Shown here piece by piece: positions 4,696 to 26,493 of a stretch of 26,493 nucleotides of DNA. The notes under the pieces were generated by a model. It saw only the letters and a program-made list of their open reading frames with translations, had not been told where the DNA came from and searched no databases. The stretch spans positions 1-26,493 of IMG/VR virus record IMGVR_UViG_3300032288_004167; one strand, written 5' to 3'. Positions within the stretch are counted from its first letter, which is position 1, and every line of letters starts with the position of its first letter. The DNA comes from a virus. The translations under genes and the position numbers were made by a program.

Positions 4696-4703
4696 TATAA
4701 ATA
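4696..4703 (+). promoter_or_regulatory. T4-type late promoter (TATAAATA) for the 422-residue gene
   Basis: An exact TATAAATA followed by C, 21 bases before the ATG at 4725. T4 late genes are transcribed from this single -10-like box by RNA polymerase carrying gp55/gp33 and the clamp. Its position immediately before a gene with a capsid-targeting-like N-terminus supports a real late promoter. Confidence 0.7.
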
Positions 4704-4724: not shown

Positions 4725-5993
4725 ATGAAGATTACTGAACTTTTAACCGAAGCAGCCACACAAACAACAAGCAATCGTGAACTCGAAGCGTTCAAAGCCA
4801 CTATTGCTAGTCGTATCAAAGAGCTTCCACCAGATGACGCCACAATAAAAGCTCTGAAAGAGATCGAAGATTTGCTCAAGCATGTCCATGCAGGTGGTAA
4901 AATAGGCATCATCAATGGTGAATTAAAGCGCATTGAAGACCACACAGTTAAAGCAGCCCAAAAATTACTAGCTACTTATATCTTAAGCATAGATATGACT
5001 CCAGAACAGCGTGAAGAATTATTTACTTTATGGAGATCAGACAAATTAGTTAATCGTAAAAAACTAATTACTCCTGGTAAATATACCTTTGCTGATATAA
5101 TAAACAAATACGATACTAATCCTGCCATTAAAGAACTGGTGGATGAACTTATGCGTATGCCAGGCATGGGACAAGGCAAGGGCGAATTTGGTCTTAATGT
5201 ATTAAGCAAAAACATTAGTAAACCCGTAGGCAAAGGTGATTTGCTCATAGATGGTAAAAAAATAGAAGTCAAAACTACAGATGTTGCTGCGGGTCGTTTT
5301 GGGGATCAGGAAGTCCGTCCAGGTAATGGATTTGAGGCAGCAGCCATTGCACTTAAAGATTTTATTAAAAACTCAGGGGCATTAGCTTCATTGCCTCCTA
5401 AAACGGTATCTACCATAAACGAAAGTGGATTAAGTTTGACTTATGCTATAATGGTAGCAGACTTGTTAGATAAAAAAGTCCTGCCAAAGTATTATTCATT
5501 GTTGGAAAAACTTATTAACCTAATTTTTAATAGCACCCAGCCTACAGCACCCATAATGCAGGCCATTAAAGCTGGTAATTTAGGTGCAGCTCAACAACAG
5601 TATATCAGGGCCAACTTTAATTATTACATGAGCATGAAAGATGATGAGGGTGTGTTATACATTAACTTAACAAAAGAACCCATAACTACAGTATTCTTCC
5701 GTGATGCAGACGAGTTGGAAAAGAGTGGTTTACGATTACATGCTAGTGCCGTTTATCTAACTAATACTAAAGATCCAGGAAGATCAGTTTATCCCAAGGC
5801 TGAGGTAGTAGATACCACCTTTGGGGCTAATGCCAGAGCCAAAGCTGAAAAAGATATGGCAAAATCAACCAAAGCAACCACTGCACCTAAGGCCACAGCG
5901 CCCGTAGATATTAGACCTACTGCTGCTAAAGTAGCTCGTGGTCAAAGAGGCGTAGCCCCAGAACCCCAGGGCAGATCCAAAAGAAACATTTAG
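4725..5993 (+). CDS. Putative packaged internal head protein with PD-(D/E)XK nuclease motif
   Basis: 422 residues. The N-terminus MKITELLTEA resembles the capsid-targeting peptides of T4 internal proteins (for example MKTYQEFIAEA), which are cut by the prohead protease after a hydrophobic-X-Glu; here the predicted cut is LTE/A at residues 7-10. Residues 20-110 are helical. A restriction-fold motif follows: E154, then GD172 in GKGDLLIDGKK, then E181-V-K183, a well-spaced PD-(D/E)XK site. The C-terminus is low-complexity (Ala/Lys/Thr/Pro-rich) and ends basic. A TATAAATA late promoter stands just upstream. I infer that it is made late, packed in the head and possibly injected as a nuclease or DNA-binding protein. 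The nuclease call is motif-level; an inactive structural relative is possible. Confidence 0.65.
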   Translation: MKITELLTEAATQTTSNRELEAFKATIASRIKELPPDDATIKALKEIEDLLKHVHAGGKIGIINGELKRIEDHTVKAAQKLLATYILSIDMTPEQREELFTLWRSDKLVNRKKLITPGKYTFADIINKYDTNPAIKELVDELMRMPGMGQGKGEFGLNVLSKNISKPVGKGDLLIDGKKIEVKTTDVAAGRFGDQEVRPGNGFEAAAIALKDFIKNSGALASLPPKTVSTINESGLSLTYAIMVADLLDKKVLPKYYSLLEKLINLIFNSTQPTAPIMQAIKAGNLGAAQQQYIRANFNYYMSMKDDEGVLYINLTKEPITTVFFRDADELEKSGLRLHASAVYLTNTKDPGRSVYPKAEVVDTTFGANARAKAEKDMAKSTKATTAPKATAPVDIRPTAAKVARGQRGVAPEPQGRSKRNI

Positions 5994-22212: not shown

Positions 22213-22541
22213 GTACTATGATCGTATAGCAACCATCCGCGACCTGTTACAACATGACGCCAGCTATAAAAGGGTCTGGTTATGTTGACAACAACATCGG
22301 TATCGGTGTAAACAATGTCTAAGGTTTTGTGTTTAAATGCTGGGTATATTTCTATTTGATCTATCCATATTTTTAAATCAGTATGGGCTAGGTGTACCCG
22401 AATCCTAAATGGTTGTAGTAACAATGGTAAAGTCATGGAATTGTCGTATAGATTATCATTGATGTACAAGTATCCTGAACTTGCTGTAACAGTAATATTT
22501 GCGTTATTTCTAATAACCGTAGTGTCTGAGAAATTGTTCAT
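22203..22541 (-). CDS. Small beta-rich protein coupled to the radical SAM gene (112 aa)
   Basis: A mostly beta chain (NANITVTASSGYLYINDNLYD, IRVHLAHTDLKIWIDQIEIYP, VVVNITRP) ending WLLYDHSTYC with a terminal Cys. No signal peptide or family recognised. Its ATG lies inside the end of the radical SAM gene, 32 bases upstream of that stop, so it is translated with it. It may be the modified substrate, a partner or a structural protein; no evidence separates these. Its other end overlaps the helicase gene by ten bases. Confidence 0.6.
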   Translation of the reverse strand: MNNFSDTTVIRNNANITVTASSGYLYINDNLYDNSMTLPLLLQPFRIRVHLAHTDLKIWIDQIEIYPAFKHKTLDIVYTDTDVVVNITRPFYSWRHVVTGRGWLLYDHSTYC

Positions 22542-23817
22542 AATCAGGTAAGTAATCTAAAATTTTGTTATGTCTTATGGATTCAAGTTCGTGCAAAAAT
22601 TGTACTAACTTTTGTTTTAGTGGTATATCTTCTGTAACAGGCTGCTCTAATAGTTTAATAATAGCCAGTGTATCTTGTATTAATGCTGATTCAAATTGTT
22701 CAGAATGTCTGGCATTGGGGTTATTTGTAATGTTACTATTAGGTAAAACTCTTAATAATTTTTTAGCTGCTTCTGCTCTTAGGTCCACTGGTAAAACTTT
22801 AAATTGTAACCATTCAGGTTTCATTAGTATATGACAACTTTCTGAATATAGTTTATGTTCCAATTGAAACTTAATAAGATCATCCAGATGCCAAACACTC
22901 AGAGCATTGGGAGTGGTTCTGAGCTGTATACTTATATTAGGAGATTGTAGACTTAGTTCTTTAAATTTTAAAATGTTAGTTTTAATTTCGGTGATATTTC
23001 CAGGATATCTTATATAGTCATTTACAGGATGTGTAGTTTCTATGCTTATACCTAAATTCACACTCTGAAACTTAGATAATAAATCTTTTAGATCATCACG
23101 CCAGATAGTGCCGTTGGTTGTAAGCCCCAGAGTAATGTGTTCATTTATACCTGTTTTAATTAGTTCCTGACATATGGCATAAAAACTAGGCATAGCCAGA
23201 GTCTCTCCACCTAGTAAGTGTATGTACCGCAGTTCAGGCATTTGGGATAATTCTGTTATAAATTTTTGTAGTGCAGTTTTGTCTGAAGTCCAATCATAAA
23301 TGCCTGAGAATTTATCTCTGTACAGATTATGTTTGGGGTCTAACCAGTTAAGTTTTTTATAAGTATTACCGAGTTTAGCACTAAATCTAGGACTGCACAT
23401 TATGCATTCGGAATTACAATAATTTCCTAGATCTATTTGTAAATCAGCCAGTTCTGAATTAGTTTTTCCAGAATGCTGAGCACTAAAATTAAAGTAACCA
23501 TAGTGTGGACTACTAGCTATGCTTTGTTCAAAATGATCCAGATCAATGCCGCTTTTGCATAATTGTCTGGCTCTGCCTGATATTTTATTGACTTTGTCCT
23601 GGTCATAGCATAGACTACAGCTTGTAATTTCAGTACCATCCAACATCTGAGCACGAATAGAACTTAATTCAGAGCTATTGAAATAAGTTTTTATGGGTAT
23701 ATTTTTAATGTTTTGAGTTGTGGATTGCTTAGGAGCCCAACGACAGTAGTGCATTTCACCGTCGGATTCAACTCTGACATGAAACCAAGGACTGCTGCAA
23801 AAAGTGTTTTTCAACAT
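22510..23817 (-). CDS. Twitch-type radical SAM protein
   Basis: 435 residues. The [4Fe-4S] cluster motif CxxxCxxC is C134, C138, C141 in GNYCNSECIMC, followed by GGE (203-205) in LLGGETL, the S-adenosylmethionine-binding signature. Four further Cys before it (C7 in FCSSPWFH, C25 in HYCRW, C67 and C70 in CSLC) form an auxiliary, twitch-like iron-sulfur ligand set. Enzymes of this type make a 5'-deoxyadenosyl radical and modify a protein, nucleoside or sugar. The start MLKNTFCSSPWFH is conserved in other phage members. It is AT-richer than the replication genes beside it and runs opposite to them, so it probably entered as a unit with the 112-residue partner. Confidence 0.82.
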   Translation of the reverse strand: MLKNTFCSSPWFHVRVESDGEMHYCRWAPKQSTTQNIKNIPIKTYFNSSELSSIRAQMLDGTEITSCSLCYDQDKVNKISGRARQLCKSGIDLDHFEQSIASSPHYGYFNFSAQHSGKTNSELADLQIDLGNYCNSECIMCSPRFSAKLGNTYKKLNWLDPKHNLYRDKFSGIYDWTSDKTALQKFITELSQMPELRYIHLLGGETLAMPSFYAICQELIKTGINEHITLGLTTNGTIWRDDLKDLLSKFQSVNLGISIETTHPVNDYIRYPGNITEIKTNILKFKELSLQSPNISIQLRTTPNALSVWHLDDLIKFQLEHKLYSESCHILMKPEWLQFKVLPVDLRAEAAKKLLRVLPNSNITNNPNARHSEQFESALIQDTLAIIKLLEQPVTEDIPLKQKLVQFLHELESIRHNKILDYLPDYEQFLRHYGY

Positions 23818-23847: not shown

Positions 23848-23855
23848 CATAAATA
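23848..23855 (+). promoter_or_regulatory. T4-type late promoter (CATAAATA)
   Basis: CATAAATA, identical to the minus-strand box at 4653-4660 and one base from TATAAATA, 20 bases before a GTG start at 23876 with an AGGA between. It would drive the late unit that includes the mosaic repeat protein. Confidence 0.55.
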
Positions 23856-23875: not shown

Positions 23876-24136
23876 GTGCAAAAAAAGACTCGAAGCCTAT
23901 TAGCAGAACTTGACCAGCATTATCTGGTCAGGGACAAAGAAAATTTTGTAGAAAGTAAAGCCCTGAACATCATACAGGGTGCTATTAATCTTTTAACCTA
24001 TATCAAAGAAAATTACGATACTGAGTCAGCAGCTGAGTTAGAGCGCAGACTGCTCAATAGTATCCGAGCACAGGACAGTAGCAAATTTAGCCGCGGGCTT
24101 AAAAAATTGAAAGAATCAGGGAATGAAACTATCTGA
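23876..24136 (+). CDS. Conserved hypothetical late protein (86 aa), GTG start
   Basis: Helical protein: QKKTRSLLAELDQHYLVRD, LNIIQGAINLLTYIKENYD, then AELERRLLNSIRAQDSSKFSRG. It resembles a small protein common in T4-like aquatic phages, usually near head-related genes; role unknown. The GTG start has AGGA nine bases before it, and no ATG exists in frame earlier. It overlaps the long mosaic gene by 14 bases, so the two are coupled. Confidence 0.72.
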   Translation: MQKKTRSLLAELDQHYLVRDKENFVESKALNIIQGAINLLTYIKENYDTESAAELERRLLNSIRAQDSSKFSRGLKKLKESGNETI

Positions 24137-26493
24137 AATCAAAGCGCAGCAACAAAATGTGGCAGAAGGTAAAGTAAAAGATTATTTACTACAAATTGCC
24201 GAAAAATCCAGTCGTGAGAAATTTATAGCACATGCTGCCAAATATGGCATGGATGCTAATGCAGCTGGTAACTTTTGGGATGATACACATGGTGTGGCGG
24301 AGATGAACATTGGTAAAAGAAAACCACAACCAGACACATATCACATTGTCAACAAAGACGGTACGCCAGCCTCATTGGCTAGTTATGCTGATAAAGATAG
24401 TGCTATCAAAGACCGTGATGCCAAACACAAAGATGCTGAAGTTAGACAACTTGGTCCAAGAGGCAAAGTCAAAGGTGTGGCGGAAGGCTTGATATCACAA
24501 GCAGACGAATTTAGAGTTGAATTAGATGATGACGGTCAGGTTCACTTACTGGATGGAGAAAATACGATTAGAGTCAGTATGCCATTAGATATATGGAAAA
24601 AGATGGCGGGTAAAAAAGGACGCACAGATGAATTCAGTGTAGAAGTAGATAACGGACAAGTTCATCTATTGGATGGTGAAGGAACCATTAGAGTTAGTAT
24701 GCCCGTAAATGTATGGAAACAACTTGGCAAGCAAGGTGTGGCGGAAGGAGTTGAGCCTAATAAACAAGCAGGACAAGCTCTTCAGGCATTGCAAAACATT
24801 GCCATCAGTAACCCAACATTAACCTATCAGCACTTTGTAAGATCAAATAAAGAGTCAATAATCAATAATGCTATTATGGCGTGTAAGCAGTTAAAAAACC
24901 AATTCCTTCAAAATAAACAACAAGGAAATGCTCAGTTCATGTATAATTTAGAAAATCAGATAGATGATTTCAAACGAGGTTATAATAGCAGTCAGGAAGA
25001 ACTCGACACATCCGATTTGTTGAGAGGTGTTCTTGGTAAAGTTAAATTCAACAGTTCAAGCAAACTGGGAGAAGGCAATATACCACAGCAAGGTGTGGCG
25101 GAAGGCTCGGAAACAGAATGTCCTCGTTGTCATAGCACCGATATTAAAACCTACAGCGACGGTGAAAAAAAATGCCATCAATGTCATAAAACCTGGGATG
25201 AGCAAGGTGTGGCGGAAGGTTTGACTAAAAACAGGAACCTTAGTCCTGAAACAAAAAAATATATTCAGAACCATAAATGGAAGTTAACCACAGTTGATCC
25301 TATGAGCCTTGATATTGATAGTTTCGATGATCCTTTCAACAGGGTTATAGATATTGATACTGAATATAGTGTTAACTTTAAAGACCCTATTATTGTACAT
25401 GGTAATGGTACTACTATAATAGATGGTGCTCATAGAGTATACCAAGCACAACGACAAGGACTTAAAAAGATACCTGCCTATGTTCCTGTAGAACAAGGTG
25501 TGGCGGAAAATAATTTACATAAATGGTTTAAAGAGAAGTGGGTTCGTTTTGGTCCCGACGGTAAAATTCGTGGAGATTGTGCTCGGGGTGATGATAGTGA
25601 AGGCAAACCAAAGTGTTTACCACAAGCCAAGGCTTATGCACTAGGTAAAAAAGGTCGTGCTACAGCAGCAGCAAGAAAACGCAGACAAGACCCTAATCCA
25701 GAGCGTCAGGGCGCAGCTATTAATGTAGCTACAAAAAAGAAAACTAACGAACAAGTTTGTCCTGAGTGTGGTGGCGCAATGTATCCTGACACCATGATCA
25801 ATGAAAAGAAGGACGCCTGCTATTACAAAGTCAAGAGTCGCTACAAGGTATGGCCCAGTGCCTATGCCAGTGGTGCTTTGGTTAAGTGCCGCAAAAAAGG
25901 TGCCAAGAACTGGGGTACTAAATCTGAGAGTGCTGAACAACGATTTAGTGAACCATTAACCGGCTATCATATTATCTATCGCAAAACTGGTAACCCTGTT
26001 ATCAATACTCCGAGTTTTGAAACCAAAGATCAAGCTCAGAAATATCTAATGACTAAAATGTTTGCCAATCATCAGGACTACAAGGTAGTTCATACTGCTG
26101 ATGTAGGACTGAAAGAAAACTGGTCAGAAAAATACAAACGCAGTATCAATTGCAACAACCCCAAGGGATTTAGCCAAAGAGCTCACTGCCAGGGTCGTAA
26201 GAAAAATGAAGCCATTGATCCTGCACAACCAGGTACAAACACTATGTCACGCACTGAAATGATTAGAGCATTACACCAAGCACATGGTTGGGGTACAGCA
26301 GAACTAAACCTAGCTTCAGATGCAGAACTCAAGGCTGAATATAGTAAATTACAAAATCAGGCTACCAAAGAAGATGTTGAATACACTCGTGATCCTGAAC
26401 TATATAGATCCAAAGAAAAAGCTCGTCAACATTATACCAGCGTAAGCCCCAAGGATGCGTTTGATAAACTTACTCAACGCAGACTAGATCATG
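24123..26493 (+). CDS. Modular polyprotein-like protein with GVAEG linkers (cut by right edge)
   Basis: Open for 790 codons with no stop. Start MKLSEIKAQQQNVAEG resembles a T4 capsid-targeting peptide ending in VAE/G. Then modules separated by (Q)GVAEG (residues 57, 118, 205, 324, 362, 459): a segment with NKDGTPASLASYADKDSA; two copies of a 35-residue domain (128-163, 169-202); a helical module (210-322); a zinc ribbon C333-x2-C336, C351-x2-C354; a ParB-like DGAHRVYQAQ (434-443); after 463 a GPDGKIRGDC ... KCLP module (C486, C498), a Cys module C546-x2-C549 with KDACYYKVKSRYKVWP and C589, and a KYKRSINCNNPKGFSQRAHC module (C677, C689). The last three recur in many marine phage proteins. Inferred: late internal-head polyprotein; function unknown. 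The start overlaps the preceding gene. Confidence 0.8.
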   Translation, partial: MKLSEIKAQQQNVAEGKVKDYLLQIAEKSSREKFIAHAAKYGMDANAAGNFWDDTHGVAEMNIGKRKPQPDTYHIVNKDGTPASLASYADKDSAIKDRDAKHKDAEVRQLGPRGKVKGVAEGLISQADEFRVELDDDGQVHLLDGENTIRVSMPLDIWKKMAGKKGRTDEFSVEVDNGQVHLLDGEGTIRVSMPVNVWKQLGKQGVAEGVEPNKQAGQALQALQNIAISNPTLTYQHFVRSNKESIINNAIMACKQLKNQFLQNKQQGNAQFMYNLENQIDDFKRGYNSSQEELDTSDLLRGVLGKVKFNSSSKLGEGNIPQQGVAEGSETECPRCHSTDIKTYSDGEKKCHQCHKTWDEQGVAEGLTKNRNLSPETKKYIQNHKWKLTTVDPMSLDIDSFDDPFNRVIDIDTEYSVNFKDPIIVHGNGTTIIDGAHRVYQAQRQGLKKIPAYVPVEQGVAENNLHKWFKEKWVRFGPDGKIRGDCARGDDSEGKPKCLPQAKAYALGKKGRATAAARKRRQDPNPERQGAAINVATKKKTNEQVCPECGGAMYPDTMINEKKDACYYKVKSRYKVWPSAYASGALVKCRKKGAKNWGTKSESAEQRFSEPLTGYHIIYRKTGNPVINTPSFETKDQAQKYLMTKMFANHQDYKVVHTADVGLKENWSEKYKRSINCNNPKGFSQRAHCQGRKKNEAIDPAQPGTNTMSRTEMIRALHQAHGWGTAELNLASDAELKAEYSKLQNQATKEDVEYTRDPELYRSKEKARQHYTSVSPKDAFDKLTQRRLDH
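24156..25508 (+). repeat. Dispersed in-frame repeat caaggtgtggcggaagg (seven copies)
   Basis: Copies of GGTGTGGCGG begin at 24291, 24474, 24735, 25092, 25206 and 25497, plus a diverged first copy (AATGTGGCAGAAGG at 24156). The full 17-base form caaggtgtggcggaagg is identical at 24732, 25089 and 25203; a truncated form is at 25494-25508. Spacing is irregular (183, 261, 357, 114 and 291 bases), always a multiple of three, so every copy reads GVAE in the same frame of the long gene. The unit is neither palindromic nor flanked by obvious target duplications. Confidence 0.92.
24504..24728 (+). repeat. Tandem 35-residue domain duplication
   Basis: Two tandem copies inside the mosaic gene, 24504-24611 and 24627-24728. 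They share DEF-x-VE-x-D-x-(D)GQVHLLDGE-x-TIRVSMP-x-x-x-WK. Protein identity is roughly three quarters, whereas the DNA has diverged at many third positions, so this duplication is older than the sharply conserved GVAEG linkers that flank the pair. Confidence 0.85.

Follow-up and report, generated by a model that had tools for sequence, protein, structure and literature searches.

A 21-bp coding unit at the module borders of putative head polyproteins in T4-related phages: predicted prohead protease site and DNA joint

The polyprotein locus

The window analysed here, meaning the whole stretch of viral DNA, is a 26.5-kb IMG/VR fragment with the phage replication genes of a DnaB-like helicase, a second DNA helicase and a primase. 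Its 3' end contains, on the plus strand, an open reading frame of 790 amino acids (24123-26492) that is still open at the end of the window, so that the encoded polyprotein is incomplete. A small ORF of 86 amino acids with a GTG start (23876..24136, plus strand) overlaps the start of the polyprotein by 14 nt and matches phrog_11854, a 'virion structural protein' (E 2.6e-15). About 20 nt upstream of this ORF, and thus of a putative operon, lies ATAAATA (23849..23855, plus strand), the core of T4-type late promoters. As a supportive feature only, it may mark the late promoter of the polyprotein operon; the enrichment of late promoters at genes of this kind is weak (23% vs. 15%).

The ATAAATA core also precedes, at 4697, a second ORF with a targeting-type peptide. 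This gene (4725-5993, plus strand) begins with the targeting-like sequence MKITELLTE/A, has no family match and is preceded at a distance of 28 nt by the T4-type late promoter TATAAATA (4696-4703); it may encode another head cargo protein. Just before the putative cargo operon, the minus strand of this viral DNA encodes a radical SAM protein with a SPASM domain (22510-23817), and a plus-strand gene at 658-1419 encodes a protein with weak similarity to LPS heptosyltransferases.

The polyprotein contains seven in-frame V-A-E sites, which bears out the original prediction, made from the DNA letters, of a long gene with an N-terminal peptide ending in VAE/G and repeats of GVAEG. The putative capsid-targeting propeptide, MKLSEIKAQQQNVAE, is encoded by 24123..24167 on the plus strand, as are all features described below, and is followed by /G at joint 1 (NVAE/G; 24150..24170, Glu codon 24165-24167), the DNA of which is divergent, with three mismatches. 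The last six sites share a near-exact DNA repeat, of which GGTGTGGCGGAAG occurs in four identical copies. Joint 2 reads GVAE/M (24285..24305, Glu codon 24300-24302) and joint 7 QGVAE/N (25491..25511, Glu codon 25506-25508), whereas glycine, predicted to follow each VAE, is present at the other five sites, including NVAEG at the first. The 21-bp unit described below forms joint 3, KGVAE/G (24468..24488, Glu codon 24483-24485), and joints 4, 5 and 6, all QGVAE/G (24729..24749, 25086..25106 and 25200..25220, with Glu codons at 24744-24746, 25101-25103 and 25215-25217, respectively). Cuts after the Glu of each V-A-E would yield a 15-residue propeptide followed by products of 45, 61, 87, 119, 38, 97 and at least 328 residues. 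Two further hydrophobic-x-Glu borders lack the GVAEG unit, MINE/K (25794-25805, Glu codon 25803-25805) and LKE/N (26109-26117, Glu codon 26115-26117); they precede a DUF5872-type and a WSEKYKRSINC module, as in cyanophages.

The modules of the window protein

No confident Pfam or NCBIfam domain was found in the window protein. The search with single modules covered all but the first, 45-residue module (24168..24302). The 61-residue module (24303..24485) recurs with 78-86% identity in the linker genes L111, L152 and L091, always beside other neighbours. The 87-residue module (24486..24746) consists of two repeats of about 40 residues and matches phrog_29763, of unknown function, in two stretches (E 6.8e-24). 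The 119-residue module (24747..25103) is homologous from its first residue to modules of the linker genes L090 and L175 (E 2.8e-13). The 38-residue module (25104..25217) resembles a four-cysteine zinc ribbon, with a weak TFIIB-type match, and recurs in L068 at 81.6% identity with different neighbours. The homology of the 38- and 61-residue modules in other viral contigs starts or ends at a joint, in agreement with the proposal that the linkers sit at module borders.

Structure prediction of each module alone had been suggested as a check. The 97-residue module (25218..25508) was modelled with AlphaFold2 at a pLDDT of 75.6, and the top Foldseek matches of the model were ParB, Noc and sulfiredoxin proteins, with a probability of up to 0.99 and an E value of 0.016. 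This fold search was clearer than a sequence search of the PDB, in which the best match was a ParB protein at just E 0.43. With moderate confidence, the module is predicted to fold like a ParB N-domain or sulfiredoxin. The incomplete C-terminal part of 328 residues (25509..26492) contains the DUF5872-type and WSEKYKRSINC modules. The original picture of tiny cysteine-rich, zinc- and DNA-binding-like proteins thus holds for one zinc ribbon and one ParB/sulfiredoxin-like fold, while the rest belong mostly to unknown families.

The proteins of 58 genes with the joint contain acetyltransferase, ParB_N, nucleotidyltransferase, 5'-nucleotidase, LysM, DUF6321 and DUF5872 domains. Each of these Pfam families occurs in one to three proteins, so that most of the polyprotein sequence has no known match. 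Peptidase families were not among the Pfam matches of the 58 proteins, a search in which divergent peptidases could be missed. The variety of the modules fits a varied set of proteins that may be directed at the host. A stretch of about 31-46 residues from the DUF6321-type region of one polyprotein also occurs in small T7-like phages, namely cyanobacterial and pelagibacter podophages such as S-RIP2 and HTVC168P.

A 21-bp unit conserved as DNA

Conservation of the joint extends to its DNA and even to its rare codons, a fact more striking than the peptide repeat observed earlier. The consensus of the unit, AAGCAAGGTGTGGCGGAAGGC, comprises 21 bases, and its information content drops to background within 1-2 bases on either side. 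Ten matches with up to three mismatches occur in the 26.5-kb window, a number reached by none of 100 shuffles. The 17-mer CAAGGTGTGGCGGAAGG was found in at least 120 viral contigs and its reversed-letter control in none. Shuffles and control together rule out a chance repeat. In the fetched loci, all 245 copies of the 13-base core use the GVAEG frame.

Plain protein conservation as the cause of the DNA identity was examined by scanning for the peptide KQGVAEG in any codons, which avoids selection by DNA. The 88 matches outside the loci of the exact scan encode Val by GTG in 81% (background 21%), Ala by GCG in 84% (background 10%) and Lys by AAG in 86% (background 31%). An exhaustive scan revealed KQGVAEG with neither GTG nor GCG in 18 contigs, and in about eight of these the ORF is unrelated. 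Codon use and the rarity of such sites rule out plain protein conservation. Roughly 240 contigs would contain KQGVAEG, as extrapolated from the proportion in the sample. Frequent homologous recombination between copies would suffice to keep the unit uniform.

A blastn search of isolates did not find the unit; the eight matches all had E values of 2-8. Two matches, both in ordinary bacterial contigs, were obtained from 84,980 bacterial and archaeal genomes, which rules out a host or prophage origin.

The joint sequence and the prohead protease rule

The T4 prohead protease gp21 cuts after L/I-X-E, and a T4 targeting peptide with Asp at position 10 still directs targeting but is no longer processed (PMC9026906). 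When up to four mismatches are allowed, 187 distinct joint sequences are obtained, of which 182 have Glu at P1 and 186 have V, M, L or I at P3, whereas P2, P4 and P1' vary widely, so that the Glu at P1 and the hydrophobic P3 alone are strongly constrained. The ratios of nonsynonymous to synonymous changes are 5:18 for E and 22:44 for V, 35:29 for A, 41:13 for the G at P4, 77:36 for the G at P1' and 79:4 for Q. Asp, the mildest substitution for Glu, was seen in just one of about 230 variants when up to five mismatches were allowed. Off-frame matches of the same similarity are almost absent. The variants show that the constraint on the putative cleavage sites matches the rule of gp21-type (S77) prohead proteases, to which VAE/G had been assigned; the match is to a relaxed form of the rule, the P3 residue being mainly Val where T4 has L/I.

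Module exchange at the joints

Splitting of 193 joint genes at recognised joints resulted in 763 pieces that form 354 families. A single gene contains up to ten joints, the inner pieces have a median length of 77 residues and each of the commonest families is found beside about 10 to 19 different partners on a side. Protein homology between these genes ends within eight residues of a joint in 29% of the cases, compared with 10% at random. At the DNA level, 32% (left) and 35% (right) of the homology ends fall no more than 6 nt from the joint's outer edge vs. 2.6-2.9% at random, so that breakpoints at the outer edge of the unit are about 12 times commoner than at random, in counts that include many pairs with a common history and hence are not independent. 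Roughly two in three breakpoints lie away from any recognised joint. BLAST alignments naturally extend across the common 21 bp; the telling fact is that homology stops there.

The clearest picture of an exchange is provided by L090 and L175, which are 98.9% identical over 1,046 nt on one flank and 100% identical over 891 nt on the other, and between these flanks contain different modules of 448 and 655 nt, respectively, each border falling at a joint. A further 12 candidate swaps were detected, and in most of these one border or both coincide with a joint. The comparison of linker and module order within the family, which had been proposed as a check, thus revealed near-identical polyproteins that differ by whole modules between joints. 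At the module borders of many phages lies a 21-bp coding DNA unit at the edges of which modules are exchanged. Beside an inserted module that is absent from L090, the joint of L175 at ORF position 1021 has Ala in place of Glu (GVAAG); it may be an inactivated cut site, which would leave two modules fused.

Targeting peptide, virion proteins and the protease

A hydrophobic-x-Glu motif occurs within the N-terminal 20 residues of 66% of the joint genes vs. 21% of control ORFs, figures in which some N-termini may be wrong because start codons were chosen by a simple rule. The genes start with peptides of the M-(K/R)-x-x-(E/D)-(L/F/I) type. By sequence pattern, they have the N-terminal targeting peptide ending in hydrophobic-x-Glu that is typical of T4-type internal proteins.

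A connection to the virion is suggested by cyanophage relatives. The window polyprotein and the T4-GC119 proteins of cyanophages have the DUF5872-type module in common, and the T4-GC119 genes lie in the late gene region near gp15-gp17. The records of P-SSM2, S-SM2 and P-RSM4 contain the note 'similar to Synechococcus phage S-SM1 protein', which in the stretches read is attached to gp3, gp13-15, gp18-21, gp23, GC403, GC190 and GC119 and to no replication genes. The S-SM1 virion is reported to contain 41 proteins identified by mass spectrometry, among them gp14, gp21 and GC190 (PMC3037559); we infer that this set includes GC119. GC190 starts with MKSFFQFLSEA and, by inspection, has a GRFNPP-type domain in common with the linker genes L121 and L153. 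In all 12 cyanophage relatives, which are mutually related and not 12 independent cases, V/I/L/F-x-E occurs at most 14 residues before the common module, compared with 14-32% expected at random anchors. The border rule is thus seen in cyanophages even though they lack the DNA unit. These relatives, reported or marked as virion proteins, lack the GVAEG unit, and it is by analogy with them that the polyprotein would be linked to the virion as cargo.

Among 25 large records with the unit, gp21 (PF03420) was found in nine and gp23 (PF07068) in exactly those nine, so that a gp21 protease gene accompanies gp23 in every gp23-bearing record; the window covers neither gene. The gp21 proteins contain conserved LDHP- and SSRGSG-type motifs. 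In the records read, gp21 and gp23 flank a gp22-like gene, and in all nine major capsid proteins an L-x-E followed by N/S/T occurs shortly before the capsid body. In all nine records the joints are on the gp21-gp23 strand, and nearly all joints of a record are on one strand. The other 16 records contain neither gp21 nor gp23, one of them having a portal gene at its very end. Four joint-bearing records of 200-343 kb (G006, G008, G009 and G012) have no match to gp20, gp21 or gp23; they are fragments or else come from phages with a different set of head genes. A nucleotide search with a capsid gene produced no match. The nearest isolates in a capsid protein search were jumbo phages at 67-70% identity, namely Vibrio 2.275.O, Sinorhizobium Phosso and the Pseudomonas PA5oct/Paride types.

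A model of the polyprotein and its alternatives

These observations point with fair confidence to a head-cargo polyprotein that would be cut by the prohead protease at sites that double as DNA joints for module swapping. The prediction that a gp21-type protease cuts a head polyprotein at V-A-E sites passed the sequence tests applied; it had not included that the joint also acts as a conserved point of DNA exchange. In the proposed sequence of events, the carrier is a large T4-related phage and a short N-terminal targeting peptide would bring the polyprotein into the prohead core. The gp21-type protease would then cut after the Glu of each hydrophobic-x-Glu joint, which would release several small proteins inside the capsid. 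With less certainty, these would be ejected into the host together with the DNA, like the internal proteins of T4. The comparison of genes shows the 21-bp joint to be a site of module gain, loss and swap between related phages. Since recombination between identical joints keeps the frame and regenerates the cut site, an imported module would be released as a protein of its own.

Synonymous-site conservation, the sharp edges of the 21 bp and the breakpoints at the joint need no protease. They would also be obtained if the joint were only a DNA recombination site and flexible spacer in a protein that stays whole and is injected as a 'polyvalent'-type protein without internal cutting. We regard this explanation as unlikely because a spacer does not explain why Glu and the hydrophobic P3 are kept while their neighbours vary, nor the hydrophobic-x-Glu borders of cyanophage relatives that lack the DNA unit. 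The short, near-identical and dispersed unit, mostly on one strand in the records checked, might even be a selfish repeat that enters late genes in frame and persists because the peptide it encodes does no harm. Such a repeat is very improbable; it would not be expected to lie at homology borders more than at random places, to use one frame in 245 of 245 copies and to keep the protease rule in its variants.

Cutting may also occur with a different outcome, in which the products would chiefly be scaffold or core material removed from the head, as happens to gp22, gp67 and gp68 of T4, and would not reach the host as cargo. In T4, gp21 breaks core proteins down into several fragments (PMC9026906), and some of the modules are short and simple. 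However, acetyltransferase, ParB-like, nucleotidase, nucleotidyltransferase and LysM modules are enzyme-like, and modules swap between close relatives, both of which are expected of host-interaction proteins, and the records read already have a gp22-like gene between gp21 and gp23. A scaffold role is thus quite unlikely. The preferred model, in which the polyprotein is cargo, can be extended to a gene-internal, integron-like cassette system. The 21-bp joint would admit any small protein and guarantee its release, recombination or a dedicated enzyme would keep the joint uniform, and the injected effectors would be common to many environmental T4-related phages. This extension is tentative, and we consider it possible rather than probable.

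Relation to known systems

The internal proteins of T4 are injected and block GmrSD restriction (PMC12373910; PMC9026906). IPI, IPII, IPIII and Alt, which have a capsid-targeting sequence and are processed by gp21, resemble the putative polyprotein in the short N-terminal targeting-type peptide that ends in hydrophobic-x-Glu, the gp21-type protease of the related phages and the variable cargo, but T4 uses one gene per cargo protein, whereas here up to ten joints occur in a gene and the putative cut site is always encoded by one and the same DNA unit. Like the polyvalent proteins of phages and conjugative elements (Iyer et al. 2017, PMC5512222), in which many unrelated domains, ParB-like ones included, are thought to be delivered together, the joint genes combine several unrelated domains in one phage protein, as the 354 families of their pieces illustrate. 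Polyvalent proteins have metallopeptidase domains of their own that are proposed to separate the parts (PMC5512222), whereas none were seen here and the head protease is proposed to act at repeated joints. Inner-head proteins of the large phages phiKZ and SPN3US are likewise cut after x-x-Glu by a diverged gp21, with the motif A-X-E in SPN3US (PMC5694885), but there propeptides are removed from single proteins, while the polyproteins are arrays of exchangeable modules.

PeSL motifs mediate gene shuffling in T4-like phages (Arbiol 2010 and Comeau 2014, as cited in PMC4503421). They are likewise repeated DNA motifs that help to shuffle small modules in T4-type genomes; they differ in being composite promoter-terminator motifs that shuffle genes, whereas the joint is a coding, in-frame unit that joins modules within a gene. 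The unit is no intergenic promoter-terminator motif, given its single ORF frame and the 21 bp to which conservation is limited. The cyanophage T4-GC119 and T4-GC190 proteins resemble the polyprotein in having homologous modules or domains, a late-region or virion location, hydrophobic-x-Glu module borders and, in GC190, a targeting-like start, but their border sequences vary and the 21-bp unit was not found in isolates. A literature search for 'GVAEG' or a head polyprotein of this kind retrieved no relevant paper and no earlier description.

If the model is correct, the small proteins that hundreds of uncultured T4-related phages deliver from the head could be read off as a catalogue, each protein bounded by a recognisable joint, and the quick change of the injected set in such phages would be explained. 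As most of the modules have no known family, the joint would serve as a sequence tag for finding unknown effectors. It would also represent a natural design in which one DNA word is both recombination joint and protease site.
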